A stretch of 64,000 bases of DNA from a virus. Below are positions 10,120-33,923 of this stretch, piece after piece; positions within the stretch are counted from its first letter, which is position 1, and the number at the start of each line of letters is the position of its first letter. The DNA lies in the IMG/VR virus record IMGVR_UViG_3300042691_021691, positions 1-64,000 of that record, one strand, 5' to 3'. A model generated the notes under the pieces. It was not told the origin of the DNA, did no database searches, and saw nothing but the letters and a program-made list of their open reading frames with translations. A program made the translations under genes and the position numbers.

Positions 10120-10134
10120 TATCTTATGTAGCTT

Positions 10135-10205: not shown

Positions 10206-10212
10206 TAAATAT

Positions 10213-10284: not shown

Positions 10285-10289
10285 CCTCT

Positions 10290-10386: not shown

Positions 10387-10418
10387 AACCGAACCCCATA
10401 ACGGAAAAGTTGCAATAC

Positions 10419-10492: not shown

Positions 10493-10516
10493 TACACTTA
10501 ACAAGGAGAAATAGTT

Positions 10517-10861
10517 ATGGCACATGGTAATGTTATTGTTGTAAATACTGTCACCGATGAAATTAAGTCAGTTCCCGTAGGATTCTCGTGGACCGTTTTG
10601 TTTTGGGGATGCTTTCCTGCACTATTTCGTCAAGATTGGAAAAATTTTGGAATTATGGCGGGAACTTTAATAATTTCTACGTTCTTGCTGGTAGCATTCA
10701 TTCCACTCGTAGTATTTGCATTTATTTATAATGATAAGATGTGTTTAAAGGATTTGCTCAATAATGGATGGAAGATTAAGGAATATACTGGAAGTAAAAA
10801 CTTAAATGTAGTTGGGCAATCTGTTGGATATAATCTTGATAAATTTATGTTGAATAAGTAA
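10517..10861 (+). CDS. Small membrane protein, DUF2628/HrgC-like
   Basis: A 114-residue protein with the sequence GFSWTVLFWGCFPALFRQDWKNF (residues 23-45), typical of DUF2628/HrgC-like membrane proteins, followed by a hydrophobic span at about 47-75. AAGGAG precedes the ATG. The function of the family is unknown. Its stop codon is inside the closing helix of the next structured RNA. Confidence 0.65.
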   Translation: MAHGNVIVVNTVTDEIKSVPVGFSWTVLFWGCFPALFRQDWKNFGIMAGTLIISTFLLVAFIPLVVFAFIYNDKMCLKDLLNNGWKIKEYTGSKNLNVVGQSVGYNLDKFMLNK

Positions 10862-11089
10862 TACGGCAGGACGAGTCTTACTCGGTTAGTGGTCGTATGG
10901 AAAGGCATCTGAAAACTGATAACGTATATGGGGTTCACCCTAGGACACAGCTAACAACTCTCCGAGTTGAGGATGAATAACGACGATGTATAGGGGTGGT
11001 CATGACCCAACGATTTTGGGGTGATACACAGATAGGAGTTGCAACTACCTATCACCTGATTGCAGGATAACACCTTTCCCGCTGTATTA
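10859..11089 (+). ncRNA. Structured RNA A (231 nt) with palindromic hairpin loop
   Basis: The ends pair over 9 bp (TAATACGGC with GCTGTATTA). Internal hairpins include CGAG/CTCG, CAACTC/GAGTTG around TCC, and GATAGG/CCTATC (11031-11053), whose loop holds the self-complementary octamer GTTGCAAC (11038-11045). No coding frame or Shine-Dalgarno sequence occurs in it. The 5' end overlaps the TAA of the upstream gene. Confidence 0.6.
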
Positions 11090-11105
11090 CTTAATATTAA
11101 AATAT

Positions 11106-11675
11106 ATGCCACATAATGTTTCACTCACAACACACAGATACGTTTATGTAGTTTCTGATTTGGTTATTCGCGATGGTAACGAGAATCTAATTCCGTGTGT
11201 ATGGTTTGGTATTGGATCCACACCACAGCGTAGTCTTGCGTGTCATATTTTATTAGAAAATGGTGCGATGTTAGTAGATATTCCACTTCATGCATTACGT
11301 TGGAAACAAACCGATATATCTGTAGCATTATCAGATGTTGTGGCGTGGGATTGTTATGGATGGGATGTGGAAATATATCAGCCAGAATATATAAGTGGAT
11401 TGTCATGTGAAATACTAGATGTTACGCATAAAAAAATTGAAGGGGTTGGAACTTTATGGTTTGCAATCGATTTTATAAATAATGGGTTTAGTGATGCCCC
11501 GCAGCAGCATAAACATTTATGGATAGTTGCACGAAATGATGGAGCCTTAATGTTACTACCGCAGGATAGATTATTAATTCACGAGTCAAGTTTTACAGAA
11601 GTAAACGGCATTCCAAAAATCAAGAGACAAGATAATGTTTGGATTGCCGAAATGATTGATAATGTTATTAAATGA
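11106..11675 (+). CDS. Hypothetical protein
   Basis: A 189-residue soluble protein, aromatic and beta-rich, beginning MPHNVSLTTHRYVYVVSDL, with motifs VWFGIGSTPQRSLACHI and LWIVARNDGALMLLPQDRL. I do not recognise it. No Shine-Dalgarno sequence is seen before the ATG, which lies 16 nt after structured RNA A, so translation may be affected by that RNA. Confidence 0.6.
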   Translation: MPHNVSLTTHRYVYVVSDLVIRDGNENLIPCVWFGIGSTPQRSLACHILLENGAMLVDIPLHALRWKQTDISVALSDVVAWDCYGWDVEIYQPEYISGLSCEILDVTHKKIEGVGTLWFAIDFINNGFSDAPQQHKHLWIVARNDGALMLLPQDRLLIHESSFTEVNGIPKIKRQDNVWIAEMIDNVIK

Positions 11676-11693
11676 TAATTGTTAATGGTTTTT

Positions 11694-11775
11694 GCTCTTG
11701 TGGTGGAATGGTATACACGGCAGTCTCAAAAACTGCTTCCCATCGGGATTGTGAGTTCGAGTCTCACCGAGAGCA
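11694..11775 (+). tRNA. tRNA-Leu(CAA)
   Basis: Acceptor GCTCTTG/CGAGAGC, anticodon stem GCAGT/ACTGC with loop CTCAAAA, class II variable arm, T-arm GTGAG-TTCGAGT-CTCAC. Confidence 0.93.
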
Positions 11776-11797
11776 CTAATTTAGTTATGGAGAATTT

Positions 11798-12367
11798 ATG
11801 AAAAATTTTAGTCAAATAATTACAGAACATTTAAGCGACAAAGTACAAAATGGCTACGGTCCAGTTTATGATAGCATTTTAAAAAACTTACGACATAAGC
11901 CATTAAATATATTGGAAATTGGAATCGGTACCGTGATTCCAGATGCACCGTCAAATATGGCGTGGCAGGGTGGTAATTATAGACCTGGTGCTTCATTACG
12001 AGCATTCAAAGAATATTTTCCAAATGCTATGATTTATGGTGGGGATATTCAAGACGATTGTATGTTTGAAGAGCCAAGAATTAAAACATTTAAGTTTGAT
12101 TCTACTAATCTATCCCAGTGTAATGCTGCATTGATGGATATGACGTTTGATATTATTATTGACGATGGGTTGCACACAACACCGGCGCAATTAAAAACGT
12201 TTAGAAATTTGTGGCATAGAGTTAACGATGGTGGATTCTATTTTATGGAAGATGTTTGGTCACCATTGTATGAAGAATGGCAAACTGCATTTGGTGATAT
12301 TGATGCGGAAAAGTGGGATTATAAGAGTAACAGCGCAAAGTATACATTTATAGTATTTTCTAAGTAA
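11798..12367 (+). CDS. Class I SAM-dependent methyltransferase-like protein
   Basis: A 189-residue protein with motif I NILEIGIGT (residue 33), an acidic end of strand two (YGGDI) and FDIIIDDGLHTTPAQ followed by GGFYFMEDVW. This resembles methyltransferases found in sugar or polyketide clusters. It may be linked to the glycosyltransferases in the window. GGAG precedes the ATG; the TAA is followed 1 nt later by tRNA-Arg. Confidence 0.75.
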   Translation: MKNFSQIITEHLSDKVQNGYGPVYDSILKNLRHKPLNILEIGIGTVIPDAPSNMAWQGGNYRPGASLRAFKEYFPNAMIYGGDIQDDCMFEEPRIKTFKFDSTNLSQCNAALMDMTFDIIIDDGLHTTPAQLKTFRNLWHRVNDGGFYFMEDVWSPLYEEWQTAFGDIDAEKWDYKSNSAKYTFIVFSK

Positions 12368-12368
12368 T

Positions 12369-12439
12369 ACCTCGATGGTGTAATGGAAGCACTACAGTCT
12401 TCGGAACTGTATGTGAGGGTTCAAATCCTTCTCGGGGTA
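12369..12439 (+). tRNA. tRNA-Arg(TCG)
   Basis: Acceptor ACCTCGA/TCGGGGT, anticodon stem ACAGT/ACTGT with loop CTTCGGA, T-loop TTCAAAT, discriminator A. Confidence 0.88.
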
Positions 12440-12441
12440 CT

Positions 12442-12526
12442 TCTAAATTATAAGGGCGGAAAATTATCCGAGTCCACCCCGCCAGAAGTGTAATGTAGGA
12501 GACTCTCGGTCCTACTATAATTTAGA
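12442..12526 (+). ncRNA. Structured RNA H (85 nt) with predicted loop-loop contact
   Basis: A perfect 11-bp end helix (TCTAAATTATA at 12442 with TATAATTTAGA at 12516) encloses two hairpins, GGCGG/CCGCC and GTAGGA/TCCTAC. The first loop contains CCGAGTC and the second GACTCTCGG, so 5-bp loop-loop pairing is possible. It lies between tRNA-Arg and tRNA-Ser, 2-3 nt from each, and has no coding frame. Confidence 0.65.
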
Positions 12527-12529
12527 TAT

Positions 12530-12614
12530 GGACAGTTGGCAGAGTGGTCTATTGCAGCAGTCTTGAAAACTGCCGTGCCGCAAGGTACCGAGAGTTCGAA
12601 TCCCTCACTGTCCG
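12530..12614 (+). tRNA. tRNA-Ser(TGA)
   Basis: Acceptor GGACAGT/ACTGTCC, anticodon stem GCAGT/ACTGC with loop CTTGAAA, class II variable arm, discriminator G. Confidence 0.93.
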
Positions 12615-12618
12615 TTGT

Positions 12619-12691
12619 GCGTCGATAGCTCAATTGGTAGAGCACTGGTCTCCAAAACCAGCGGTTGGGGGTTCGACTCCCTCTCGGCGTG
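12619..12691 (+). tRNA. tRNA-Trp(CCA)
   Basis: Acceptor GCGTCGA/TCGGCGT, anticodon stem CTGGT/ACCAG with loop CTCCAAA, T-arm GGGGG-TTCGACT-CCCTC, discriminator G as usual for Trp. Confidence 0.93.
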
Positions 12692-12694
12692 TAG

Positions 12695-12774
12695 GCGCTT
12701 ATGGCGGAATTAGCAGACGCACCAGTCTTAGGAACTGGCGGGTAACCGTGGGGGTGCAAGTCCCTCTAAGCGCA
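12695..12774 (+). tRNA. tRNA-Leu(TAG)
   Basis: Acceptor GCGCTTA/TAAGCGC, anticodon stem CCAGT/ACTGG with loop CTTAGGA, class II variable arm, T-loop TGCAAGT (G in place of the second T). Confidence 0.93.
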
Positions 12775-12779
12775 TACTT

Positions 12780-12852
12780 GCGGGTGTAGCTCAGTTGGTA
12801 GAGCACTTCCTTGCCAAGGAAGATGTCACGGGTTCGACCCCCGTTACCCGCT
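12780..12852 (+). tRNA. tRNA-Gly(GCC)
   Basis: Acceptor GCGGGTG/TACCCGC, anticodon stem CTTCC/GGAAG with loop TTGCCAA, T-arm ACGGG-TTCGACC-CCCGT. Confidence 0.93.
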
Positions 12853-12865
12853 CTTTAATAAATTT

Positions 12866-13252
12866 ATGAATGATAAATCAATACAAAATATAAGAAGTAA
12901 TGCATTAACGTATGGGACCACGCCAAATGCTCCTGCCTCAATATATCCAGAAAATATAGATGAGTGGAAAGCTAATGTATCTCCTACATTTAAGCATTAT
13001 TTCAAAGAAAGATATGATGAAATAGTAAAGTTGTATGAACGGTTAGCAGAAGAATATGCAATAAATAAAATGTTATACGAATGCCAAATTTCGTTTCAAC
13101 CAAAAATTGGTGAAACTTATTATTTGTATAATACGCCAAGCAAAGGTGCATTCATTTCGCTAGTTTCTCCTGAGTCTGCTTTCTGGGGTGGTTTTGTAGG
13201 ATCGTTTAAATTGAATTCGCAGTATGCGTGGGAAAAGGTAACGTCACTGTAG
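12866..13252 (+). CDS. DUF2452-like conserved protein
   Basis: A 128-residue protein with the run FKHYFKERYDEIVKLYERLAEEY (residues 39-61) followed by ISFQPKIGETYYLYN and a C-terminal FVGSFKLNSQYAWEKV. This matches my recollection of DUF2452, a small family of unknown function. The last 10 nt, including TAG, are inside tRNA-Phe. No strong Shine-Dalgarno sequence. Confidence 0.65.
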   Translation: MNDKSIQNIRSNALTYGTTPNAPASIYPENIDEWKANVSPTFKHYFKERYDEIVKLYERLAEEYAINKMLYECQISFQPKIGETYYLYNTPSKGAFISLVSPESAFWGGFVGSFKLNSQYAWEKVTSL

Positions 13253-13315
13253 CTCAGTTGGTAGAGCGCCAGCCTGAAGAGCTGGGCGTCAGGGGTTCGA
13301 CTCCCTTCGGTGACA
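13243..13315 (+). tRNA. tRNA-Phe(GAA)
   Basis: Acceptor GTCACTG/CGGTGAC, anticodon stem CCAGC/GCTGG with loop CTGAAGA, T-arm AGGGG-TTCGACT-CCCTT. The 5' end overlaps the stop of the preceding gene. Confidence 0.93.
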
Positions 13316-13339
13316 TTTTATTTAAATATTGAGGTTATT

Positions 13340-13699
13340 ATGCGGTTTCTTACCAGAAAATTAGTTCAGCCAGGAGATTTAAACGCAGGTGGAACTTTGT
13401 TTGGAGGACGATGCTTAGCATGGATTGACGAAGAAGCGGCAATTTATGCAAGTATTGAAACTAGACATCGACGGGTAGTTACAAAAAGCATATCAGAAAT
13501 AAATTTTATTGCTCCTGCATTTCAAGGAGATATTGTTGAAATTGGAATTGGTTTAAAAACTATAGGTAAAACATCAATTACATTAGAAGTGCAGGTTAGA
13601 GACTTGACAACTCACAAAGTTATTGTTAATATCGATGAGATGGTGTTTGTTTGTATAGATGAAGACGGAAGGCCTGTTAAACATTCATTAAGCAAATGA
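13340..13699 (+). CDS. Hotdog-fold acyl-CoA thioesterase (YciA-like)
   Basis: A 119-residue protein starting at the ATG at 13340 (GAGG upstream; an upstream in-frame extension would enter tRNA-Phe). The hotdog helix and catalytic Asp are in NAGGTLFGGRCLAWIDEEAAIYAS (residues 15-38), followed by strands INFIAPAFQGDIVEIGIG and TSITLEVQVRD. These hexameric enzymes hydrolyse acyl-CoA esters. This would be a host-metabolism gene; it may shift lipid or acyl-CoA pools during infection. Confidence 0.85.
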   Translation: MRFLTRKLVQPGDLNAGGTLFGGRCLAWIDEEAAIYASIETRHRRVVTKSISEINFIAPAFQGDIVEIGIGLKTIGKTSITLEVQVRDLTTHKVIVNIDEMVFVCIDEDGRPVKHSLSK

Positions 13700-13700
13700 T

Positions 13701-13835
13701 ATGGAAATTTATCTTATATACGGATTAATTGTGGCATTTTGTGTGTTTATTGCAATTCAATGGACAAGAGGTATTGTTTATATGGATAGTAATCATTCTG
13801 ACTATAAAGGCGAAGATTTTTTAGGTGATATATGA
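13701..13835 (+). CDS. Small single-span membrane protein
   Basis: A 44-residue peptide (MEIYLIYGLIVAFCVFIAIQW...) with one hydrophobic span and an acidic soluble tail. It begins 1 nt after the thioesterase stop and is probably translated with it. Function unknown. Confidence 0.55.
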   Translation: MEIYLIYGLIVAFCVFIAIQWTRGIVYMDSNHSDYKGEDFLGDI

Positions 13836-13843
13836 ACGTTCGT

Positions 13844-14001
13844 GAATTTATCGCACATCCCTGATGTGTTTGCCCGTATTGTCCTCTGTAACGTGCTATA
13901 GGTTTCGACCTAGTTACATGGTAACGGGGTAGGCATTGTCCGGACATGACCTACCACGACCAGACCTGTCGGATTGAAGATGTGCGCGGAATGCAAAATT
14001 C
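13844..14001 (+). ncRNA. Structured RNA C (158 nt) with palindromic 9-nt loop
   Basis: Ends pair through GAATTT/AAATTC and CGCACATC/GATGTGCG. A hairpin GGTAGG-CAT / ATG-A-CCTACC (13928-13955) has a 9-nt loop made of T plus the self-complementary GTCCGGAC. The 5' CACATC can instead pair with GATGTG three bases downstream, so two folds compete. It begins 8 nt after a stop codon and ends 15 nt before tRNA-Asn. Confidence 0.6.
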
Positions 14002-14016
14002 ATCTATGGTCAATAT

Positions 14017-14089
14017 TCCCAGATAGCTCAGTCGGTAGAGCAGGTGACTGTTAATCACCGGGTCGGGGGTTCGAGTCCCTCTCTGGGAG
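14017..14089 (+). tRNA. tRNA-Asn(GTT)
   Basis: Acceptor TCCCAGA/TCTGGGA, anticodon stem GGTGA/TCACC with loop CTGTTAA, T-arm GGGGG-TTCGAGT-CCCTC, discriminator G. Confidence 0.93.
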
Positions 14090-14110
14090 CTTATTTAATA
14101 CAGAGGTAAT

Positions 14111-14386
14111 ATGAAACATATTTTATATGCAAAACCAAAAACATTAACAGAAACAGAAGAACATATTATAGTAAAGAGAAAATGGTGGGCGGTTATTCTA
14201 TTAGTAATTGGTGGAATAATGCTAGCAGCCAAGTTACCAGTTCCTTTATTTATTCCGTATATCTTCTTTTTCTTTGGTCATGGTGGAATGCTACATAGTT
14301 TTTGGAATAAACATGACTATCCAATGGTTATTGTAAATCTGATTTGGTTGTTGATTGACATTATAGGCACAATTAGGTGGTTTTAA
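14111..14386 (+). CDS. Small multi-span membrane protein
   Basis: A 91-residue protein with three probable spans (about 24-44, 45-57, 70-90) and a central FFFFGHGGMLHSFWNKHDYP loop with two His. No family recognised with certainty; it recalls small Mpo1/DUF962-like membrane proteins. GAGG precedes the ATG. It overlaps the next gene by one base (TAATG). Confidence 0.6.
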   Translation: MKHILYAKPKTLTETEEHIIVKRKWWAVILLVIGGIMLAAKLPVPLFIPYIFFFFGHGGMLHSFWNKHDYPMVIVNLIWLLIDIIGTIRWF

Positions 14387-14769
14387 TGATAGAGATTACC
14401 AAATTAATATTAGATACCGCACAGGGAATATTTAATGCTATACAAGGAAAGAAAAGTCAAAGAAAAAATGAGATATCTTCTTTCTTTTTGGCAATTTCAA
14501 GAGAACTTGATATCGTAGTCGAAAAGCTTAAAAATGGAGAAGTTCCACATGGATCTTGCGCTACCATTCAGCATTTTGCTACGGAGTTTCCTACTAAATT
14601 AGAAGGTGTATTAGATAAGGTAAAAGCACATAAATATGGAAGTGCATTGCATCAAGCACACAATGTAGAAATGTTACACATAACGGTTAAAGAGAATCCA
14701 GCATGCTTGGCGGATTTAGAAAAGGCATCAGGATTATTTCGTGGGGCTGGATTAACAGTACTGTTATAA
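14386..14769 (+). CDS. Hypothetical helical protein
   Basis: A 127-residue soluble helical protein (MIEITKLILDTAQGIFNAIQGKK...). The ATG at 14386 shares its first base with the previous TAA, so translational coupling is likely. No motif recognised. Confidence 0.65.
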   Translation: MIEITKLILDTAQGIFNAIQGKKSQRKNEISSFFLAISRELDIVVEKLKNGEVPHGSCATIQHFATEFPTKLEGVLDKVKAHKYGSALHQAHNVEMLHITVKENPACLADLEKASGLFRGAGLTVLL

Positions 14770-14781
14770 GGTATGAATTAT

Positions 14782-15309
14782 ATGACTTGGAATATTGACA
14801 GACTAAAACGTGCTGGGTTTTTACTTACCGAGAGCAATATTTCAAATGCTCAAGAGATAGAAGAGTTTTTAAGCAACTGTGAAAGCACTGTCGCAACGGA
14901 AGATAAATTACATACGATAACTGAAAAGTTTTCGATAGCAGAATTACAACCACAAATTAGTAAGATGCATCGGTCAGATTACCTGTTTACTAGCATAATA
15001 CAAAATATGTATGCAACGGTATCTGCACTTCCGTGTGTTTATGTTCAACGCGATATCGTGCCAACTAAATTAAGAAATTTTAAAGCAATTCTACATTTGG
15101 ATCGGTATATCAATGACTCATACGATGAAGCGACGGTGAAAGGAACTATAGAACTTTTATCGGAATATTTAGGTTATGAATTAAAATTATTTATTGGTCA
15201 CGAATGTGTTTTAAATAAAACTCCAATATATATAGATTCTCCACTGATACCTACTGTCGGTGAAGATAACATTATTACGTTTAGTTTTACGTATTCTACA
15301 CCAGTATAA
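14782..15309 (+). CDS. Hypothetical protein
   Basis: A 175-residue protein (MTWNIDRLKRAGFLLTES...) with no family I recognise. The ATG at 14773 is an alternative, but AAGG is better placed for 14782. The C-terminal half is beta-rich (TVGEDNIITFSFTYSTPV). tRNA-Asp follows the stop by 2 nt. Confidence 0.6.
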   Translation: MTWNIDRLKRAGFLLTESNISNAQEIEEFLSNCESTVATEDKLHTITEKFSIAELQPQISKMHRSDYLFTSIIQNMYATVSALPCVYVQRDIVPTKLRNFKAILHLDRYINDSYDEATVKGTIELLSEYLGYELKLFIGHECVLNKTPIYIDSPLIPTVGEDNIITFSFTYSTPV

Positions 15310-15311
15310 AT

Positions 15312-15385
15312 GGGGTGGTGGCGCAATTGGTTAGCGCACCGGACTGTCACTCCGGAGGTTGCGGGTTCGATCCCCGTCCATCCCG
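15312..15385 (+). tRNA. tRNA-Asp(GTC)
   Basis: Acceptor GGGGTGG/CCATCCC, anticodon stem CCGGA/TCCGG with loop CTGTCAC, T-arm GCGGG-TTCGATC-CCCGT, discriminator G. Confidence 0.93.
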
Positions 15386-15410
15386 TAGTTAATTGAGTCA
15401 GGAATTAGTT

Positions 15411-15842
15411 ATGATGAGAGAATGTGGAAACTGTACAAAATGTTGCGAAGGTTGGCTAGTTGCAAATATTTTTGAACATAAAATATATAAAGACAATCCT
15501 TGCCCTTATATTGATAGTGATAACTGTAAGTGTTCTATTTATAATAAAAAGCCATTACTATGTTCCGATTTTAAATGTGCTTGGTTAAAAGAAGAACATG
15601 TATTTCCATTATGGATGAAACCAAATTTAATAAATCAAATTATTAAAAAGCATGTAACAAATGAATATATTTATTATGAGATAGTAGAAGCAGGATCAAC
15701 CATAGATACCGAAATATTAAATTGGTTTATGGAACAAGCAGCTAAGGGAAGGATGAATATAAAATATAGTATAAACGGATTACCACATTACGTTGGTGAT
15801 AGTTATTTTTGCAAATCCAGACCTATGATTGGCAATAGCTAA
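15411..15842 (+). CDS. YkgJ-like Cys-rich metal-binding protein
   Basis: A 143-residue protein with the Cys pattern CGNCTKCC near the N-terminus, then CPYIDSDNCKCSIYNKKPLLCSDFKC, typical of the YkgJ/UPF0153 family thought to bind Zn or an Fe-S cluster. I used the ATG at 15411 because CAGGA precedes it; a TTG at 15393 is also open. Biological role unknown. Confidence 0.75.
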   Translation: MMRECGNCTKCCEGWLVANIFEHKIYKDNPCPYIDSDNCKCSIYNKKPLLCSDFKCAWLKEEHVFPLWMKPNLINQIIKKHVTNEYIYYEIVEAGSTIDTEILNWFMEQAAKGRMNIKYSINGLPHYVGDSYFCKSRPMIGNS

Positions 15843-15845
15843 TTC

Positions 15846-15919
15846 GGCAGAGTAGCTCAGTTGGTAAGAGCGCATGACTCATAATCATGAGGTCGAGGGT
15901 TCAACTCCCTCCTTTGCTA
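15846..15919 (+). tRNA. tRNA-Met(CAT), elongator-like
   Basis: Acceptor GGCAGAG/CTTTGCT with G-U pairs, anticodon stem CATGA/TCATG with loop CTCATAA, T-arm GAGGG-TTCAACT-CCCTC. The first acceptor pair is formed, unlike the initiator at 19559. Confidence 0.88.
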
Positions 15920-15939
15920 TAATTTAAACAGGGAGTGTA

Positions 15940-16506
15940 ATGCACAATTTAATAGTAATTGGACATCCGGACAAAAATAGCTTTTGTTATAATGGAATAT
16001 TTAAAACCATTATCGAAGAATTGAAGCGTAACAACGAAGAAATTGAAATAATTGATTTATATAAAGATGATTTGTCAATTAAGAAGAAAGAGGTTATCAA
16101 GCATTATCAAGAACTTGTAACGTGGTCGGATAGAATTTATATCATCTCACCTGTGTGGTGGTTTAGATGTACCCCGTTAATGGAAGAGTTTTTTGATGTG
16201 GTATTTACTCCAAAATTTGCATATGAGTTTAAACCTCTCATTCCAAAATACGGATATCCTAAGCCATTGCTATCAGATAAAAAAGTTAGAACTTATCTAA
16301 CGCACGGTGCACCTGCTTTACCTGTATACTTATTATATTTTAATGCGGTGAAACTTCGATTGTCTCTTGGTGTATATTCATTTGTATTTGGGTGGTTTAA
16401 AGCTAAAACTAGACAATTTTGGAGCGTACCGTTCGTTGACAATTCGACAAGAATGCGTTATCTTACAAAAGTTAAACAGGACATTAATAAAGATTTGAAG
16501 TTATGA
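15940..16506 (+). CDS. Flavodoxin-fold NAD(P)H oxidoreductase
   Basis: A 188-residue protein with an FMN-type start (LIVIGHPDKNSFCYNGIF), a WSDRIYIISPVWWFRCTPLMEEFFDVVF stretch (about residues 67-94) and LSDKKVRTYLTHGAP, as in NQO/KefF-type quinone reductases that bind FMN or FAD. GGGAG precedes the ATG. It overlaps the next gene by 4 nt. A likely redox accessory gene of the phage. Confidence 0.8.
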   Translation: MHNLIVIGHPDKNSFCYNGIFKTIIEELKRNNEEIEIIDLYKDDLSIKKKEVIKHYQELVTWSDRIYIISPVWWFRCTPLMEEFFDVVFTPKFAYEFKPLIPKYGYPKPLLSDKKVRTYLTHGAPALPVYLLYFNAVKLRLSLGVYSFVFGWFKAKTRQFWSVPFVDNSTRMRYLTKVKQDINKDLKL

Positions 16507-16907
16507 AAGATAAAGTTGGTGTAATTGCAGGAAACTTTGATGTTATACATCCTGGGTATATGAAGATGTTTGCAGAATGTAAAGCAAACTGTGATATCTT
16601 TGAAGTATTTTTACACGAAGATCCCAGTATTGGACGACCAGAAAAAATAAAACCCATTCTTTCTGTAGAAGAGCGAATGGAAATACTATACGGTATTAGG
16701 TATATTGATAGCGTAGTTCCATATAAGACTGAACAAGATTTATATAAACTACTAAAAGTTTCTGGAATACATATACGGTTTTTAGGCGATGATTATCTTA
16801 ACAAACCGTTTACAGGTGATGATTTAGGTATTCCTATATATTGGATTAAGCGTGATCATGGATGGTCAACTACAAAGTTTAAAAATTTAATTGCACAATC
16901 AGTATAA
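16503..16907 (+). CDS. Cytidylyltransferase-like nucleotidyltransferase
   Basis: A 134-residue protein with GNFDVIHPGYMKMF near residue 9, the position of the HxGH motif (the second His is Tyr here), ILSVEERMEIL, and WSTTKFKNLI near the C-terminus, equivalent to the ISTT signature. Glycerol-3-phosphate or ethanolamine-phosphate cytidylyltransferases share this size. The His-to-Tyr change could alter or weaken catalysis. Confidence 0.75.
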   Translation: MKDKVGVIAGNFDVIHPGYMKMFAECKANCDIFEVFLHEDPSIGRPEKIKPILSVEERMEILYGIRYIDSVVPYKTEQDLYKLLKVSGIHIRFLGDDYLNKPFTGDDLGIPIYWIKRDHGWSTTKFKNLIAQSV

Positions 16908-16912
16908 AATAC

Positions 16913-16997
16913 GGGAGTGCCGCAAAGTTGGAGGTTTGCACCGGACTGTAAATCCGTTGGTTCATAGCCCTAGTAGGTTCGAATCCTTCCACTACCA
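16913..16997 (+). tRNA. tRNA-Tyr(GTA)
   Basis: Acceptor GGGAGTG/CACTACC with one mismatch, anticodon loop CTGTAAA, long variable arm as in bacterial Tyr tRNAs, T-loop TTCGAAT. Confidence 0.88.
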
Positions 16998-17000
16998 TTT

Positions 17001-17073
17001 GCACCCATAGCTCAACTGGCAGAGCATTCGCCTCTTAAGCGACAGGTTGTAGGATCGTCCCCTACTGGGTGCA
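17001..17073 (+). tRNA. tRNA-Lys(CTT)
   Basis: Acceptor GCACCCA/TGGGTGC, anticodon loop CTCTTAA, T-stem GTAGG/CCTAC with the non-standard T-loop ATCGTCC, a change shared with the other Lys tRNA at 5096. Confidence 0.88.
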
Positions 17074-17076
17074 TCT

Positions 17077-17151
17077 AGTCTCTTAGCTCAGTCTGGTTAG
17101 AGCGTCCGTCTGATACACGGAAGGTCCGGGGTTCAACTCCCTGAGGGACTA
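17077..17151 (+). tRNA. tRNA-Ile(GAT)
   Basis: Acceptor AGTCTCT/AGGGACT, anticodon stem TCCGT/ACGGA with loop CTGATAC, T-loop TTCAACT, discriminator A. Confidence 0.9.
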
Positions 17152-17171
17152 TATAATTATTAGGAGAATAT

Positions 17172-17279
17172 ATGGCAGAAGTATTGACAAAGTGTAAAGA
17201 CTGTGGTAATATACAAAAGGGTGCTGCACCGCCTTGCGATAGATGTCAAGGAATGAGATTAGAGATGTTTAAAAAGTAG
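17172..17279 (+). CDS. Small zinc-ribbon peptide
   Basis: A 35-residue peptide with two CxxC knuckles (TKCKDCGN and PPCDRCQG). AGGAG lies 8 nt upstream of the ATG. It sits alone between tRNA-Ile and tRNA-Pro. Likely binds Zn; partner or nucleic-acid target unknown. Confidence 0.7.
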   Translation: MAEVLTKCKDCGNIQKGAAPPCDRCQGMRLEMFKK

Positions 17280-17286
17280 TATTTTT

Positions 17287-17361
17287 CGGAGAATAGCTCA
17301 GTCCGGCTAGAGCACTCGCTTTGGGAGCGAGGGGTCGCAGGTTCGAATCCTGTTTCTCCGA
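17287..17361 (+). tRNA. tRNA-Pro(TGG)
   Basis: Acceptor CGGAGAA/TTCTCCG, anticodon stem CTCGC/GCGAG with loop TTTGGGA, T-loop TTCGAAT, discriminator A. Confidence 0.93.
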
Positions 17362-17368
17362 CTTATAT

Positions 17369-17443
17369 ACCCTCGTAGCTCAGTTGGATTAGAGCAACAG
17401 CCTTCTAAGCTGTGGGTCAGAGGTTCGAATCCTCTCGGGGGTG
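17369..17443 (+). tRNA. tRNA-Arg(TCT)
   Basis: Acceptor ACCCTCG/CGGGGGT, anticodon stem ACAGC/GCTGT with loop CTTCTAA, T-arm AGAGG-TTCGAAT-CCTCT, discriminator G. Confidence 0.92.
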
Positions 17444-17455
17444 CTAAGTTTTTTC

Positions 17456-17530
17456 GGATGGGTGGCAGAGAGGTCCAATGCAAGAGTCTGCAAAACTCTA
17501 AAGCCGCCGGTTCGAATCCGGCCTCATCCT
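17456..17530 (+). tRNA. tRNA-Cys(GCA)
   Basis: Acceptor GGATGGG/CTCATCC, anticodon stem AGAGT/ACTCT with loop CTGCAAA, T-arm GCCGG-TTCGAAT-CCGGC, discriminator T (U73) as expected for Cys. Confidence 0.93.
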
Positions 17531-17553
17531 TTATTATTAGCTAGGAGATATTT

Positions 17554-17739
17554 ATGTGGGTGTTAAAATTAAATGAAACGGCACAGGGATATTTTGACGA
17601 TGTAACTGAGGCTAAGGTTCATGCAGAAAAGATGTTTGGAATGTTGGAATTTAATACTATGGTGGGAGATAAATATAGTGCATTAATTCCAAATAGAGGG
17701 AATACAACGGTTACAATTGAATTTGAAGAAGATTGCTAG
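17554..17739 (+). CDS. Small hypothetical protein
   Basis: A 61-residue protein (MWVLKLNETAQGYFDDVTEA...) with a beta-alpha-beta look and an acidic C-terminus. AGGAG upstream. The stop codon TAG lies at bases 3-5 of tRNA-Thr, so gene and tRNA share 5 nt. Function unknown. Confidence 0.7.
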   Translation: MWVLKLNETAQGYFDDVTEAKVHAEKMFGMLEFNTMVGDKYSALIPNRGNTTVTIEFEEDC

Positions 17740-17807
17740 CATAGCTCAGTTGGTAGAGCAGCTGATTTGTAATCAGCAGGTCGTCGGTTCAAACCCGTCT
17801 GCTAGCT
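17735..17807 (+). tRNA. tRNA-Thr(TGT)
   Basis: Acceptor GCTAGCA/TGCTAGC, anticodon stem GCTGA/TCAGC with loop TTTGTAA, T-loop TTCAAAC. Confidence 0.93.
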
Positions 17808-17812
17808 CTAGT

Positions 17813-17887
17813 GGTGGTCGTAGCTCAATCGGTTAGAGCATCGGATTGTGGTTCCGAGGGTTGCGAGTTCGATTCTCGTCGATCACC
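17813..17887 (+). tRNA. tRNA-His(GTG)
   Basis: Acceptor GTGGTCG/CGATCAC plus an encoded extra G at the -1 position opposite C73, the tRNA-His identity pair. Anticodon stem TCGGA/TCCGA with loop TTGTGGT. Confidence 0.92.
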
Positions 17888-17921
17888 CCAGTGAAATTAT
17901 TTAAACTAAAAAGAGGTTATT

Positions 17922-18176
17922 ATGTTATCTAATATTAGTCCAAACGACAAGCTTAAATTAGAAAACGCATTGAAGGATTATAGCGTTTCTCTTACACGAG
18001 TAGAGGCGGAACGAGATCTTCAAAAGAATATTAAAAATGATATTTGCGAAGAATTGCAATTAAATAAAAAGGTGTTTGTGAAGTTGGCAAACACATATCA
18101 TAAACAAAACTTTTCGGAAGAAGTGCAGTTGCATGAGGAATTCGAAAATCTTTATGAATCCGTAACCACCTCTTGA
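17922..18176 (+). CDS. Small coiled-coil protein
   Basis: An 84-residue, strongly helical charged protein (MLSNISPNDKLKLENALKDY...). GAGG precedes the ATG. The -35 box of the next promoter overlaps its last codons. No family recognised. Confidence 0.65.
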   Translation: MLSNISPNDKLKLENALKDYSVSLTRVEAERDLQKNIKNDICEELQLNKKVFVKLANTYHKQNFSEEVQLHEEFENLYESVTTS

Positions 18177-18205
18177 CAGTTTAATAACTTCAGATTATAT
18201 TTATA
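18173..18205 (+). promoter_or_regulatory. Promoter TTGACA-N17-TATATTTATA
   Basis: A perfect -35 box and exact spacing. The predicted start (about 18208) coincides with the first base of the closing helix of structured RNA D, which supports that RNA as a primary transcript. Confidence 0.8.
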
Positions 18206-18206
18206 A

Positions 18207-18338
18207 AATTGCGATAAGTTCTAGTCATTCCATATCGTCTATAGCGAGTTGCTGGGATGGCGTTTGAAGAACAACAAAGGATGCATACGCAGGTTGAAAT
18301 ACCATAAGAGCGGATTTGCCCGAACCGCTATCGCAATT
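18207..18338 (+). ncRNA. Structured RNA D (132 nt), directly behind a promoter
   Basis: A perfect 10-bp end helix (AATTGCGATA at 18207 with TATCGCAATT at 18329). Inside, GCGG/CCGC forms a hairpin near the 3' end, and a 6-nt palindrome ATGCAT lies in the middle. It has no coding frame and ends 4 nt before tRNA-Glu. Confidence 0.6.
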
Positions 18339-18342
18339 ATAT

Positions 18343-18414
18343 GCCGCTTTCGTCTATCGGTTAGGACATAGCCCTTTCAAGGCTAGAAGGCGAGTTCGAT
18401 TCTCGCAAGCGGTA
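18343..18414 (+). tRNA. tRNA-Glu(TTC)
   Basis: Acceptor GCCGCTT/AAGCGGT, anticodon stem TAGCC/GGCTA with loop CTTTCAA, T-loop TTCGATT, discriminator A. Confidence 0.92.
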
Positions 18415-18577
18415 CTATGGGTAAGGCTTCACATACGGTGAAAATGAATTTGGATGCAAGATAACAGACAAACTCCTTGTGAGACATTCGACGGAATGAG
18501 TGCTGCAACTTGCTAGAACCATTAGTAATTAGTAACGCTGAAGTGTCTGCCCACCATCATATTGATAGGAGTATGCA
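18415..18577 (+). other. Non-coding stretch with possible RNA structure
   Basis: No convincing gene. TGGG and CTTCA near the 5' end can pair with TGAAG and CCCA near the 3' end around an internal loop; local hairpins TTCAC/GTGAA and CATTC-GACG-GAATG compete with this. The ribosome binding site of the next peptide lies at the end. Confidence 0.35.
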
Positions 18578-18670
18578 ATGCCACATCCAAAAAAGTGCGG
18601 AAAGGGTCGGCGTAAAGTTGGCTCAAAGAAGCGCAGAAATCGTTGGAAAAATAGAAAGCGTAATCATTAA
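18578..18670 (+). CDS. 30-residue highly basic peptide
   Basis: MPHPKKCGKGRRKVGSKKRR followed by NRWKNRKRNH: about half the residues are Lys, Arg or His, with one Cys. ATAGGAG lies 8 nt upstream of the ATG. The composition suggests RNA or DNA binding; its place among tRNAs and structured RNAs makes RNA a natural target, by inference. A longer open frame across this region in another phase is not used. Confidence 0.65.
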   Translation: MPHPKKCGKGRRKVGSKKRRNRWKNRKRNH

Positions 18671-18846
18671 TCCCGTCTGCTTCATAGAGGCTGCTGACGT
18701 TAAACAACGAACTCTATCGTTAGTCTATCGGCGCGTGGATAGAAGCTTGGCAACGTGTCGGATGTTGCAAAAGGATAGAGGGAGCGGGTCTAGACCGTGC
18801 GACATCCTTGGGTATCTGGAAAATACCTCAATTGTCTCCCTTCTAC
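18671..18846 (+). ncRNA. Candidate structured RNA F with GTCTAGAC palindrome
   Basis: Hairpin ATAGAG/CTCTAT (with CGTT/AACG inside) is followed by GGATGTTGC (18760) pairing with GCGACATCC (18799). The loop between them holds GGTCTAGACC (18787-18796), including the octamer GTCTAGAC. GGTAT/ATACC forms a last hairpin. No end-to-end closing helix was found, so the boundaries are uncertain. Confidence 0.5.
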
Positions 18847-18917
18847 TGCCCTCTCGTATAAAGGCAATACAGCTGACTTTGGATCAGCGAATCGTGGTTC
18901 GATTCCATGGAGGGCAA
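18847..18917 (+). tRNA. tRNA-Gln(TTG)
   Basis: Acceptor TGCCCTC/GAGGGCA, anticodon stem GCTGA/TCAGC with loop CTTTGGA, T-loop TTCGATT. Confidence 0.9.
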
Positions 18918-18953
18918 CTGCAGTAATCATTTAAAATTCAAAAGAGGTATACA

Positions 18954-19115
18954 ATGTTTAAATTTTTAGCAATTCTATCGTTAGCAACCGTTACCGCATG
19001 CACAACCACAGACAAGCCTGATACTGTTCAAGGTGGTGGCGGTGGAGTTACCGATACCACCAGCGGTGGAGATAAGGCAGTAATCAAGGCAGATTCAACC
19101 GTTAAGATGCACTAA
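18954..19115 (+). CDS. Small lipoprotein
   Basis: A 53-residue precursor MFKFLAILSLATVTAC with a lipobox (VTAC) and Cys at residue 16, then a Gly/Thr/Asp-rich mature part. AGAGG precedes the ATG. Short lipoproteins of this size serve as outer spanins or superinfection-exclusion factors in phages; the distance from the lysis block leaves either possible. Confidence 0.75.
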   Translation: MFKFLAILSLATVTACTTTDKPDTVQGGGGGVTDTTSGGDKAVIKADSTVKMH

Positions 19116-19147
19116 AATTTATGTGGTTGTGCTTGCAACCACATCTT

Positions 19148-19218
19148 GCGGTTCTAGTGTAATAGATAGCACATCTGGTTTCCAACTAGAAAGTCCGGTG
19201 CAACTCCGAGGAACCGCT
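19148..19218 (+). tRNA. tRNA-Gly(TCC), second copy
   Basis: Perfect acceptor GCGGTTC/GAACCGC, anticodon stem TCTGG/CTAGA with loop TTTCCAA. The T-arm is weak (TCCGG/CCGAG around TGCAACT), so charging efficiency is uncertain. It differs clearly from the Gly(TCC) at 5399. Confidence 0.8.
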
Positions 19219-19230
19219 CTTAGTTATTTG

Positions 19231-19555
19231 ATAATATGCAGAAGATGATACGTGACTGAATGCCTCGTTCTTCGGGGGCACGGTATTTCCTAGAGCGCAC
19301 TGTTAGGGAAGTCTAAGTAGGGTTGTGGAATTATAAGTCAGGAAGGAATCATGGGAGGTGTAGCGCCATGAGGAGCGCCAACTGGTCGGTAGCTTACATT
19401 CGCGAGAAGACGGCTGGTATGTGGGTAAATTCCCACCTTGGGTCCAAGTGACAACTATACGAGTAGCTACCGTATAGCCAAGTGGATGAATAATAAAACT
19501 ACAACGGAAAGGTATGGGATTCGCATTCCCATCGTATCATCTTCTCATATTGTAT
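19231..19555 (+). ncRNA. Structured RNA B (325 nt) with 21-bp closing helix
   Basis: The first 22 nt (19231-19252) pair with 19533-19555 through 21 bp with one bulged C at 19239 and one G-U pair. Inside are TGCCTC/GGGGCA, GCGC/GCGC, GTGGG/CCCAC, ATGGGA/TCCCAT, and CTATACG/CGTATAG (19455-19477), whose 9-nt loop is A plus the palindrome GTAGCTAC. CGGTAGCT at 19387 can pair with AGCTACCG at 19465, giving a possible pseudoknot. No gene, intron core or RNase P consensus was recognised. It ends 3 nt before the initiator tRNA. Confidence 0.65.
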
Positions 19556-19558
19556 TGC

Positions 19559-19630
19559 CGCAGGGTAGAGCAACGGTAGCTCGCTTGGCTCATAACCAAG
19601 AGGTAGTGGGTTCGACTCCCACCTCTGCCA
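19559..19630 (+). tRNA. Initiator tRNA-fMet(CAT)
   Basis: Acceptor CGCAGGG/CTCTGCC with an unpaired C1-C72, the initiator hallmark. The first part matches typical bacterial initiators (CGCAGGGTAGAGCAACGGTA). Anticodon stem CTTGG/CCAAG with loop CTCATAA; T-arm GTGGG-TTCGACT-CCCAC. Confidence 0.92.
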
Positions 19631-26707: not shown

Positions 26708-27043
26708 GGGCCTGACATGGTTTCGACGGGGTGTAGAAGATTAAACTTTGTATCTCGTTTGGTAAGACGAGTAAAACAGACCAAAATATTTAACTGGCAA
26801 TAATCAATTAGCCCTCGCTGCGTAAGCAGCTTGACAAATTAGTCCAACCCACGTAAGATTAATTTGTTCATTAACGTGGTATAGTCTTAGGGAGGGACCG
26901 TAGCTAAGATGATACACAACAGTCCTATGCCAATCTTACGTTTGTTAGTTGTCGAGAGATTGGCGAAGCAATACAACTGACTATATACATAAACATTTAA
27001 TACGAAGCTATCTCGGACGTGGGTTCGAATCCCACCAGGTCCA
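26708..27043 (+). ncRNA. ssrA: tmRNA
   Basis: One-piece tmRNA of 336 nt. The tRNA-like part is GGGCCTG at the 5' end pairing with CAGGTCC at the 3' end, with TGGTTTCGACGGGG near the start and T-arm GTGGG-TTCGAAT-CCCAC. The tag frame at 26796-26825 reads GNNQLALAA then TAA; with the charged Ala the tag is AGNNQLALAA, ending in the degradation signal ALAA. The stop codon lies in a GTAA loop of a GCTGC/GCAGC hairpin. No CCA is encoded. It rescues stalled ribosomes with SmpB; no smpB gene is visible here, so the host protein is presumably used. Confidence 0.95.
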
Positions 27044-27067
27044 CTTAAATTTGAGGTTACATATAAA

Positions 27068-29456: not shown

Positions 29457-29535
29457 TATTTATAGTCTCGCACCAACAATGGTGGAGACAACCAGGTATG
29501 CTCACTAATGAGATACCATTTCTTAGGAGTCTTAT
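29457..29535 (+). promoter_or_regulatory. TATTTATA box and two-hairpin leader of the Hsp20 gene
   Basis: TATTTATA at 29457 is followed by GTCTC-CACC / GGTG-GAGAC and GGTAT-CTCA / TGAG-ATACC hairpins, then TAGGAG before the ATG. The ribosome binding site itself is outside both stems, so a simple RNA thermometer is not evident. Confidence 0.5.
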
Positions 29536-30027
29536 ATGACTAAAAATTCTTTATTGGTACGTCCGAGAAGTTGGGTGGGATCGGTTTTTAATGAACGTGA
29601 TTCGTTTGTTAATTCATTTGATCAAATTTTCGATGAAATGCTTAAGACACAGTTCCCAGAAGCATTTACCGAAATTGGCGCAAATCCAATTGGTAGAGCA
29701 GCGTATCCAAAGGTTAATGTAGTAGCAAAAGAAAATTCATTGGTTATTGAGGCGGAGCTAGCAGGACTGAAAAAGGAAGAAATTGATCTAGATGTTAAGG
29801 ATACGATTCTAACAATTTCAGGAAAAGCTACTTCCACCGAAGCGGCAGAAAATACGGTTTATGTAATTAGAGAATTAAAGCGATCTGGTTTTAGTCGTGC
29901 ATTTGTGCTTGGTAAACAATTTGATACTTCTAAAATTAGTGCAACATTTGAAAACGGGTTACTGACAATTGAAATTCCAAGATTTATTAAGGAAGACAGT
30001 AACCCACAAAAGGTTACGATTAAGTAA
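29536..30027 (+). CDS. Small heat-shock protein (Hsp20/alpha-crystallin)
   Basis: A 163-residue protein whose alpha-crystallin domain covers about residues 55-150: YPKVNVVAKENSLVIEAELAGLKKEEIDLDVKD, TLTISGK, and the conserved A-x-x-x-n-G-L-L (ATFENGLLTIEIP). Phage Hsp20 proteins are known in marine T4-like phages and probably help folding or assembly of virion proteins. A clean Shine-Dalgarno sequence TAGGAG is present. Confidence 0.93.
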   Translation: MTKNSLLVRPRSWVGSVFNERDSFVNSFDQIFDEMLKTQFPEAFTEIGANPIGRAAYPKVNVVAKENSLVIEAELAGLKKEEIDLDVKDTILTISGKATSTEAAENTVYVIRELKRSGFSRAFVLGKQFDTSKISATFENGLLTIEIPRFIKEDSNPQKVTIK

Positions 30028-30057
30028 AAACCTTAAATAACTAGGAGGGCTAACGTA

Positions 30058-30117
30058 ATGATTCGTAGTTTTAAATCAGCAGTAGTTAATCACAAAAACT
30101 ATAACCGATATAACTAG
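30058..30117 (+). CDS. Leader peptide (19 residues)
   Basis: MIRSFKSAVVNHKNYNRYN with a very strong TAGGAGG upstream. The TAG stop overlaps the second Shine-Dalgarno-like sequence. GGGCTAA at its ribosome binding site is complementary to TTAGCCC at 30141-30147, so it can be masked by downstream RNA. It is probably a regulatory leader ORF. Confidence 0.45.
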   Translation: MIRSFKSAVVNHKNYNRYN

Positions 30118-30139
30118 GAGGTGATCCACATCGGTTATA
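30100..30139 (+). promoter_or_regulatory. Hairpin exposing a 13-nt anti-16S (super Shine-Dalgarno) sequence
   Basis: A perfect 10-bp stem (TATAACCGAT with ATCGGTTATA) presents a 20-nt loop with AGGAGGTGATCCA (30116-30128), fully complementary to the 3' end of typical bacterial 16S rRNA. No start codon follows at normal distance; the next ATG is at 30160. Confidence 0.65.
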
Positions 30140-30170
30140 TTTAGCCCAAAACGTTAACCATGGAGATACT

Positions 30171-30213
30171 AACGGGGTCATTGAGAACCACTCTTTGACC
30201 CCGTTCATTCATT
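30171..30213 (+). terminator. Terminator-like hairpin before the 30229 gene
   Basis: AACGGGGTCA and TGACCCCGTT pair over 10 bp with a 15-nt loop, followed by CATTCATTT. It ends 16 nt before the next start codon and completes a leader ORF / hairpin / terminator series, as in attenuators. Confidence 0.7.
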
Positions 30214-30228: not shown

Positions 30229-31284
30229 ATGATAACACTACATAGATTGATAGTATTTACGGCATTTTGTATAGCAGCGGCAGCAGCATATTTTTCAGTT
30301 ACAGGAATAGGAAAATTATTTGCAGGTGCAGCTATGTCGGCAATGGTTATGGCAAGTGCGTTAGAATTAGGAAAGCTGGTATCGGTTTCATTCTTATATC
30401 GATATTGGAAAATTATACCTCGTGCATTAAAAACTTATATGACTGCTGGCAGTATAGTTTTAATAGCTATAACATCCGCTGGTATATATGGATATCTTTC
30501 ATCTGCGTATGCTACAGTTGCCGCTACGCCATTAAAAATGAACGCAGATATACAAATTTTAGATGCACAGGCAAAAACTTTAGATGAAGAAATTCAAAGA
30601 AAGACAAATAGATTAGATCAAATTATTTCTCTTCGTGGACAGCAAGAATCTAGAATTGATAATTTGATTGCAAAAAGTACAACTGGTTCTAATACTACAA
30701 TTAGAACGGCGCAAAATTCATTGCGAGAATTAGATAGAACAGCATCGGCGTTACAACAAGAAATAAACAAAACATCCGCTCAACGTGATAGCCTACGGGC
30801 AAAAAGTCTAACAACAGGTGTTGAAATTAATACTAATTCCGACATAGGAACTTTTATGTATATTGCAAATGCAATAGGAGTTCCATTAGATACTGTAGTT
30901 AAATGGTTTATATTAGTTATTGTCTTGGTGTTTGATCCTTTGTCTATTAGCTTAGTATTAGCATATAATTTTCTAAAAATGCAAGAAACTAAAAGTGTGG
31001 AATCCAAGCCTATAGAAGATGAAAAGGAATTGCCGTTGTATACACCGGAGCCAATAGCAGAAAAAATAGAATTGGTGGAAGCAGAAGAACTTACACCAGA
31101 CATACCTGCTGTATTAGATTTGCCAACCGAAGAAGTAATTAATAAAATTGATTATAATCAAATATATAATGATCCAATGCCATATTATATGAATTCAAAA
31201 TATGATTGGAACAAAGATCAACGATGGGAAACCGACCCATCTGCTATAGCATTCAAAAGATATTTAGATAACAAAACCATATAA
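30229..31284 (+). CDS. Multi-span membrane protein with coiled coil
   Basis: A 351-residue protein: three N-terminal spans (about 5-25, 30-50, 70-95), a long coiled coil (105-200) with repeated Gln/Arg/Asp heptads, a fourth span (223-245) and an acidic C-terminal tail. The layout recalls DUF4407-like membrane proteins. It follows an elaborate leader, which implies tightly set expression. Function unknown. Confidence 0.7.
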   Translation: MITLHRLIVFTAFCIAAAAAYFSVTGIGKLFAGAAMSAMVMASALELGKLVSVSFLYRYWKIIPRALKTYMTAGSIVLIAITSAGIYGYLSSAYATVAATPLKMNADIQILDAQAKTLDEEIQRKTNRLDQIISLRGQQESRIDNLIAKSTTGSNTTIRTAQNSLRELDRTASALQQEINKTSAQRDSLRAKSLTTGVEINTNSDIGTFMYIANAIGVPLDTVVKWFILVIVLVFDPLSISLVLAYNFLKMQETKSVESKPIEDEKELPLYTPEPIAEKIELVEAEELTPDIPAVLDLPTEEVINKIDYNQIYNDPMPYYMNSKYDWNKDQRWETDPSAIAFKRYLDNKTI

Positions 31285-32888: not shown

Positions 32889-33923
32889 ATGTATGAATGC
32901 CTAACATATGATGATATAAATCTAGTTCCCGCCTATAGTGAGATCGAAAGCCGTCAAAATATTGATCTTACGACACAATTAACTACTAATTATAGTTTAA
33001 TGGTTCCGCTCATCGCAAGTCCTATGGATACGGTATGTGATGTTGATATGGCTATTGCAATGGCTGAAATGGGTGGTGTAGGATGTATTCATCGATTTAT
33101 GTCCATTGAAGAGCAAGCGGAGCAAATACGGGATGTAAAATTTTCTATACGCGACAGCATCTATTATGAAAGATGGAACGGTATGGAAATTCCCTATATG
33201 GCTGCGGTTGGAGCCAATGGTGATTATTTAGAACGGGCACAAGAGTTGACAAATAAAGGTGCAAATGTTATATTAATTGATGTGGCACACGGACATCACA
33301 AATTTGTCAAAGATGCTATTGAAAATTTAAAGAACAAGCTACCATCACACGTTGATATTATTGCTGGGAATGTAGCTACTGCTCAAGCTGCAATGGATTT
33401 AGAGGATTGGGGAGCTAATGCAATTCGAGTGGGTATAGGCGGCGGATCATTATGCACAACCAGAATTAAAACTGGATTCGGTGTTCCTAATATTACATCA
33501 CTAGAACAATCTTCTAATTCGACATCGGTTCCAATTATTGCATGTGGTGGAATTCGTTCAAGTGGAGACATTGCGAAAGCACTGGCTGTTGGGGCAAGCT
33601 CTGTAATTCTAGGTTCTTTATTAGCAGGAACAAAGGAAGCGCCTGGGGCAATTATTGAGAAGTCTACTGGTTTATATAAGCGTTATCGTGGGGCAGCTTC
33701 TTTGGAAACCAAGACAGTGCATGGTCAAGTGCAACGTAACGTGGAAGGGGAATCCACCGTAGTTCCGTTCAAAGGTGGGGCAAAATTTGTTATAGAAGGG
33801 TTATTGGATGGGCTTAGGTCGGCACTGTCATATGCAGGAGCACAAAGCTTATCTAAATTTAATCCTGAATATGTCAGAGTAACAAATGCAGGAATAACAG
33901 AAGGAAGACCGCATTTGTTATAA
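32889..33923 (+). CDS. IMP dehydrogenase / GMP reductase family enzyme
   Basis: A 344-residue barrel without CBS domains. The catalytic Cys loop is GIGGGSLCTTRIKTGFGVP (Cys about 185), the phosphate site is IIACGGIRSSGDIAKALAVGAS, and the C-terminus EGESTVVPFKGG...LLDGLRSALSYAGA is closer to GMP reductases than to IMPDH. It would change guanine nucleotide supply in the infected cell. Which of the two reactions it catalyses is not certain. Confidence 0.88.
   Translation: MYECLTYDDINLVPAYSEIESRQNIDLTTQLTTNYSLMVPLIASPMDTVCDVDMAIAMAEMGGVGCIHRFMSIEEQAEQIRDVKFSIRDSIYYERWNGMEIPYMAAVGANGDYLERAQELTNKGANVILIDVAHGHHKFVKDAIENLKNKLPSHVDIIAGNVATAQAAMDLEDWGANAIRVGIGGGSLCTTRIKTGFGVPNITSLEQSSNSTSVPIIACGGIRSSGDIAKALAVGASSVILGSLLAGTKEAPGAIIEKSTGLYKRYRGAASLETKTVHGQVQRNVEGESTVVPFKGGAKFVIEGLLDGLRSALSYAGAQSLSKFNPEYVRVTNAGITEGRPHLL

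Follow-up and report, generated by a model that had tools for sequence, protein, structure and literature searches.

A putative phage RNA unit that presents the complement of the 16S rRNA tail in a hairpin loop beside the stop codon of a micro-ORF

A short leader in the genome of a large tailed phage appears to be a self-contained RNA unit, which would consist of a micro-ORF, a hairpin that docks the 30S ribosomal subunit without initiating translation, and a terminator. We give an even chance to the reading that this hairpin is a dock in cis, which would protect the RNA or tune the translation of the micro-ORF. Comparison across relatives backs the unit as such, its hairpin, the position of the micro-ORF stop, a wobble-constrained pairing to the 16S rRNA, the missing start codon, and the independence of the unit from its neighbours. 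The analysed stretch of 64 kb (hereafter the window) is part of an IMG/VR virus record of 92.8 kb. Its phage is placed among the large tailed phages by baseplate, primase and other genes and is remote from every named phage. The features of the leader and its surroundings are as follows.

29457-29464 (+): TATTTATA box, putative phage (late-type) promoter of the hsp20/micro-ORF transcript, followed by a GC hairpin
29536-30027 (+): gene for an Hsp20-like small heat shock protein (PF00011, E = 2e-20; phrog_432)
30043-30049 (+): AGGAGGG, ribosome site of the micro-ORF, a strong site kept in relatives
30058-30117 (+): micro-ORF of 19 codons, MIRSFKSAVVNHKNYNRYN, with its TAG stop in the hairpin loop
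30100-30109 (+): 5' arm of the hairpin, TATAACCGAT, formed by the last micro-ORF codons
30110-30129: hairpin loop of 20 nt
30116-30128 (+): AGGAGGTGATCCA, complement of the 16S 3' tail
30117-30126 (+): conserved core, GGAGGTGATC, kept in 50 distinct loci
30130-30139 (+): 3' arm of the hairpin, ATCGGTTATA
30141-30147 (+): TTAGCCC, which may tentatively pair with GGGCTAA (30047-30053) of the micro-ORF ribosome site
30162-30168 (+): GGAGATA, a further SD-like box, for which no start codon is conserved
30171-30205 (+): terminator-like GC hairpin of the unit
30229-31284: membrane-protein gene, the downstream neighbour of the leader in the window

An initial annotation had described a 13-nt complement to the 16S rRNA 3' end in the 20-nt loop of a perfect 10-bp hairpin, with a 19-codon ORF upstream, and both were found at these coordinates, the ORF with AGGAGGG just before it. 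A detail absent from that annotation is that the 13-mer begins within the TAG stop of the micro-ORF (30115-30117). The whole 201-nt stretch folded better than shuffled sequences (z = -3.2). Masking of the micro-ORF ribosome site by TTAGCCC, which had also been proposed, is possible as a pairing in the window and is suggestive across relatives, in which the long-range pairing between the ribosome site and an AACCT segment was slightly better for a locus' own segments than for swapped pairs (permutation p = 0.055). As for the terminator-like hairpin predicted downstream, the GC hairpin is present, but its U-tract in the window is poor and it was unlisted by a strict terminator scan. GGAGA or GGAG occurs at the place of the second SD-like box in most relatives. 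A model of RegB cleavage (GGAG) for these boxes gave no match anywhere, and none in the controls either.

Relatives of the locus, all of them metagenomic contigs, were fetched by the membrane protein and the Hsp20 protein without using the motif, and their flanks were then read. The scan for the 10-nt core tolerated up to 3 substitutions, and more degenerate versions would escape it. Since the loci were found by protein and the scan was tolerant, the motif was not selected for. The unit was present in 18/18 of the first relatives with that flank and in 124 of the 170 loci with a recognised membrane gene, 50 of which are distinct by that protein. Conservation among relatives with the same gene order, named in the initial annotation as a check on the 13-mer, was thus observed for its 10-nt core. 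The unit is missing from more distant relatives that possess hsp20, a terminator and the membrane gene, and it was therefore either acquired inside one uncultured clade or lost in lineages beyond it. Larger records that were scanned contained one strong copy per genome. No close sequence relatives of the locus were detected in named phages by blastn, and the unit was not found in the checked named phages with a distant homologue of the membrane protein.

The window has a single exact copy of the 13-mer, compared with 0.0009 copies expected under a dinucleotide model, and elsewhere in the window complementarity to the 16S tail extends over at most 9 contiguous bases, with at most 7 in the ribosome sites of genes. 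Chance occurrence was rejected on the basis of this expected count, the comparison with gene sites and the conservation in relatives. The 12-mer is found once in the phage's own 92.8-kb genome and its reverse complement not at all (0 copies). The genome thus lacks a complementary sequence, so the target is not phage-encoded, and a phage-internal pairing partner was rejected. For the site in the window, the duplex with the 16S tail has a predicted energy of -24.3 kcal/mol (-19 to -24.5 kcal/mol for the variants), compared with -3 to -11 kcal/mol predicted for the ordinary sites tested, among them those of the micro-ORF (-10.7) and hsp20 (-6.8). The pairing partner of the loop is a segment of the 16S rRNA that we take to be positions ~1530-1539 (E. 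coli numbering), and the boundary of helix 45 is presumed likewise.

The substitution pattern of the 10-mer (consensus GGRGGTGATY in relatives) is consistent with this partner. Mapping onto the membrane-protein tree yielded ~15 changes in total (A3>G nine times, C10>T four times, A8>G and T6>C once each), of which all except T6>C, that is 14/15, preserve pairing to the 16S tail GAUCACCUCC via G-U wobble. Transversions did not occur (0), and the five G and T9 remained unchanged. With transitions spread evenly over the ten sites, the chance of 14/15 pairing-preserving changes is by our own arithmetic near 5e-7, a figure that draws on the SD core, whose conservation may have other causes. Beyond the GGAGG core, 5/6 changes preserve pairing (~4% by chance, again by our arithmetic), and for this reason the extended part of the pairing is less certain than the core. 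The base following GATC varies freely among relatives, as expected if the single-stranded 16S tail ends there. Judged from these comparisons, pairing of the 10-mer to the 16S tail is well supported. The bare motif is uninformative without its context, because the 120 matches of a 14-mer in IMG/VR were near chance level by our estimate and showed no association with hairpins.

The stem of the hairpin changes among relatives in a manner that retains pairing. Its arms covary (ATAACCGAT/ATCGGTTAT, CGTAACTG/CAGTTACG, ACATAACTT/AAGTTATGT, TAACCAG/CTGGTTA, and others), and the compensatory changes include C-G to U-A (9 rows) and A-U to G-C (6 rows). In alignment A3, in which the rows of L212, L215 and L219 were shifted by the aligner, 88% of the cells pair, compared with 24-39% when the partner was slid, and both sides had changed in 17 cells versus 5.0 in shuffles. 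This alignment is the cleaner test of covariation, as A4 includes several minus-strand rows that match another hairpin. In the divergent loci L228, L229, L230 and L245 the SD itself is a possible partner of the 3' strand (GGTTACTTC). Such pairing would hide the site rather than expose it in a loop, and some members of the family may thus lack the accessible-loop form. Two further candidates were rejected at this point. Antisense pairing of the 3' arm to the 5' strand of 16S helix 45 conflicts with the joint C-G to U-A changes in the arms, which break the match, and a minus-strand mimic of the anti-SD conflicts with the ORF, the stop conservation and the terminators, all of which lie on the plus strand.

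The micro-ORFs of the relatives have a strong ribosome site and mostly 12-26 codons. In ~40 distinct recognised micro-ORFs the stop (TAA, TAG or TGA) is located 2-7 nt before GGAGG; the most divergent member of the family, L241, has no recognised stop-adjacent micro-ORF. The micro-ORF is Cys-rich in most lineages (MCxCxxCxC, with MCSC, MCCC or MCGC followed by CxC), and it has an unrelated sequence in the window, L233, L235, L238, L239 and L245. Small indels shift the frame of the window's micro-ORF relative to other lineages, and its end position is unchanged. The sequences of stem and micro-ORF are thus free to change and the stop position is fixed. The absence of a start codon at normal distance, noted in the initial annotation, was borne out among the relatives, as ATG, GTG or TTG was found 3-13 nt after GGAGG in 1 of 42 elements (a 43rd row was left out as a false hit).

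A terminator hairpin with a T-rich tail follows GGAGG at a distance of 31-70 nt in nearly all relatives examined and is weak in L241, where a divergent copy of the unit lies between an HD gene and hsp20. The hsp20 gene is the usual upstream neighbour of the unit and is not obligatory, being not adjacent in L212, L233 and L245. Most relatives viewed have the TATTTATA box ahead of hsp20; L212, which lacks hsp20 at this place, has it immediately before the micro-ORF. Further copies in the window lie at 2628, 6476, 18198, 22810, 26443, 26522, 35487, 51348, 58953 and 62350. On the coding strand, 11/19 TATTTATA boxes lie outside ORFs, a space that makes up 14% of the window, and the corresponding count for TATAAATA is 0/7. 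The box is probably a promoter element of this phage clade and is unlike the T4 late consensus. In the first lineage, a second conserved hairpin (ATATAACCGTTC...GGACGGTTATAT) lies just upstream of the hsp20 promoter box (L128:3171-3245, minus strand; likewise in L129, L135, L137, L159, L237 and L301), which has the same stem sequence as the hairpin of the unit and a loop without an SD. The window also contains a translation toolkit of 30 tRNA genes, including tRNA-Cys, and a tmRNA with the tag GNNQLALAA (2790-19630 and 26708-27046). An IMP dehydrogenase-like gene at 32889-33923 has its best relatives in an uncultured huge phage (~50% identity) and in Microcystis phage Mel-JY01 (40%).

We infer that 30S subunits bind the site in the cell, that termination on the micro-ORF feeds the dock, and what docking is for. 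The loop would offer the complement of the single-stranded 16S 3' tail, to which a 30S subunit could dock via 10-12 base pairs, and docking would be non-productive because no start codon is within reach. The micro-ORF would supply ribosomes that terminate a few nucleotides before the docking site. A ribosome at the stop would open the 5' arm and cover the site, with the 10-mer presumably in its mRNA entrance. A released 30S subunit would need to move by ~15-20 nt for its own tail to reach the site, and a new free 30S subunit could bind the loop directly. Held there without a start codon, the subunit would cover the segment before the terminator, and a cis-acting dock at the 3' terminus of the micro-ORF transcript (often an hsp20-micro-ORF transcript) would retain it on the RNA. 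A likely use would be protection of the RNA, or tuning of micro-ORF translation to the level of free 30S subunits, that is, a form of ribosome sensing. The sequence does not discriminate among protection, titration and sensing.

The main rival of the cis dock is titration in trans, in which an abundant short RNA would sequester free 30S subunits or block the anti-SD and thereby lower SD-dependent host translation during infection. We regard such a decoy as unlikely, even if several properties of the unit suit it: the complementarity to the full tail, the missing start codon, the presentation of the site by a hairpin, the discrete terminator and the extra GGAG boxes on either side of the site. 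In L212 the unit extends over 225 nt from the promoter-like TATTTATA box via a 5' hairpin to the terminator. The short RNA capturing 30S subunits that the initial annotation had suggested as one option was sustained in its core by this unit of ~225 nt together with the conserved wobble-type 16S complement and the lack of a start codon. However, a decoy would not need coupling to a translated micro-ORF and its stop, and the single copy per genome, the usual position of the unit behind hsp20 and the use of SD sites by the phage's own genes also argue against it.

A leader-peptide attenuator is improbable. Ribosomes on Cys codons, or another cue, would in this case control the downstream membrane gene through the hairpin and the terminator. 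Most relatives have many Cys codons in the micro-ORF, which is followed by the terminator and then usually by the membrane gene; leaders with Cys codons are known (PMC1262725), and a stop beside a functional site recalls rbfL (PMC13009471). The Cys codons are, however, missing in the window, L233, L239 and L245, antiterminator pairing was not seen in the folds inspected, and the site is not followed by a start codon. Moreover, the gene after the terminator lies on the opposite strand in L219 and is an extra, different gene in L237, and in both loci the terminator remains ~58-63 nt behind GGAGG. Since the terminator stays with the unit in loci that lack an adjacent hsp20 or have another gene behind it, the unit is probably no attenuator of the gene that follows, and the varied neighbours argue against a leader dedicated to the membrane gene as well as against a plain 3' UTR of hsp20. 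The translational attenuation leader considered in the initial annotation was not supported: the site is not followed by a conserved start codon, and the unit's own terminator persists with an opposite-strand or inserted gene. The genes inserted between this terminator and the membrane gene (L237:2189-2980; L219:2001-2897, minus strand) indicate that the spot behaves like an insertion site.

We also consider it rather improbable that the Cys-rich micropeptide is the product and that the hairpin with its SD-like loop merely aids its mRNA by a stable 3' end or by local recycling of 30S subunits. MCxCxxCxC is common to distant lineages, and synonymous changes are in mild excess (27% versus 20% in a shuffled null), but in several lineages, including the window, the peptide was replaced outright while the stop position and the 10-mer stayed. 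Finally, an ordinary start site of an overlooked ORF beginning with the ATG in the 3' arm, or a frameshift or bypass signal, is highly improbable, as the ATG found 14-16 nt after GGAGG in 23 rows (20 at 15 nt) is spaced far too long and is replaced by ATA in the window and ACG in a second lineage, and as the frame that is open past the site for a stretch in some relatives gives, by eye, unrelated lengths, on which grounds frameshifting and bypass were rejected.

Within the databases and open-access literature searched, this RNA family is undescribed, and its separate parts (a non-initiating SD, a leader ORF and a terminator) are known. Rfam contained no match at the gathering score for the locus (best E = 0.07, 19.7 bits versus a cut-off of 43), the stem-plus-motif pattern had no match among bacterial genome contigs, and no phage or bacterial RNA of a matching kind was found in the open-access literature. 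The unit may exemplify, with a probability that we place somewhat below even, an RNA class that seizes the 30S subunit via the entire single-stranded 16S tail and is fed by termination on a micro-ORF, a trap in infection that would hold or sense ribosomes in cis or tie them up in trans. If true, a phage clade would have kept a natural RNA that catches ribosomes by the tail with which they recognise mRNA, does not initiate translation and is linked to a stop codon. Phages would thereby have a new means of holding, counting or withholding ribosomes, or of using them for protection. At ~60 nt the part would be compact, and its binding to 30S lends itself to direct tests with ordinary E. coli subunits.

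Several known systems share individual properties with the phage unit. In cys operons, leader peptides with Cys codons act in ribosome-mediated transcription attenuation (PMC1262725). The phage unit resembles such attenuators in having several Cys codons in a short ORF that precedes a hairpin and in the order of leader ORF and intrinsic terminator; it differs in that the downstream gene is not conserved (L219, L237), no antiterminator was seen in the folds inspected, and the Cys codons are not universal. Translational attenuators of the ermC/cat type possess a sequestered SD with a start codon, whereas 41/42 phage elements are without a start at 3-13 nt. In the case of rbfL, the coding sequence and stop of the leader ORF overlap the rbf SD (PMC13009471), and a ribosome on a short ORF thus covers an SD-like site beside the stop as it would in the phage unit, which in contrast has no start codon or dependent gene after the site. 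Termination-reinitiation, for which post-termination movement and the role of the SD in coupling have been reviewed (PMC12548453), is similar in that an SD near a stop could retain the post-termination ribosome, but the phage unit has no reinitiation start within reach. The closest relative in working principle is STAB-SD, which PMC7509114, citing Agaisse and Lereclus 1996, describes as a non-initiating SD in the 5' UTR that stabilises mRNA. STAB-SD and the ribosome protection of the hbs mRNA in Bacillus subtilis share with the phage unit a strong SD that apparently recruits ribosomes and is not a start site, and the phage unit, like STAB-SD, has a 16S-complementary SD-like sequence without a usable start codon. 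STAB-SD lies near the 5' end of the transcript and shields it against 5' exonuclease, whereas the phage site, going by the predicted transcript ends, lies ~50 nt before the terminator, after the micro-ORF and usually after hsp20. It is further distinguished by its position directly behind a stop codon, within the loop of a hairpin, and by a complementarity that extends beyond the SD core to the whole single-stranded 16S tail.
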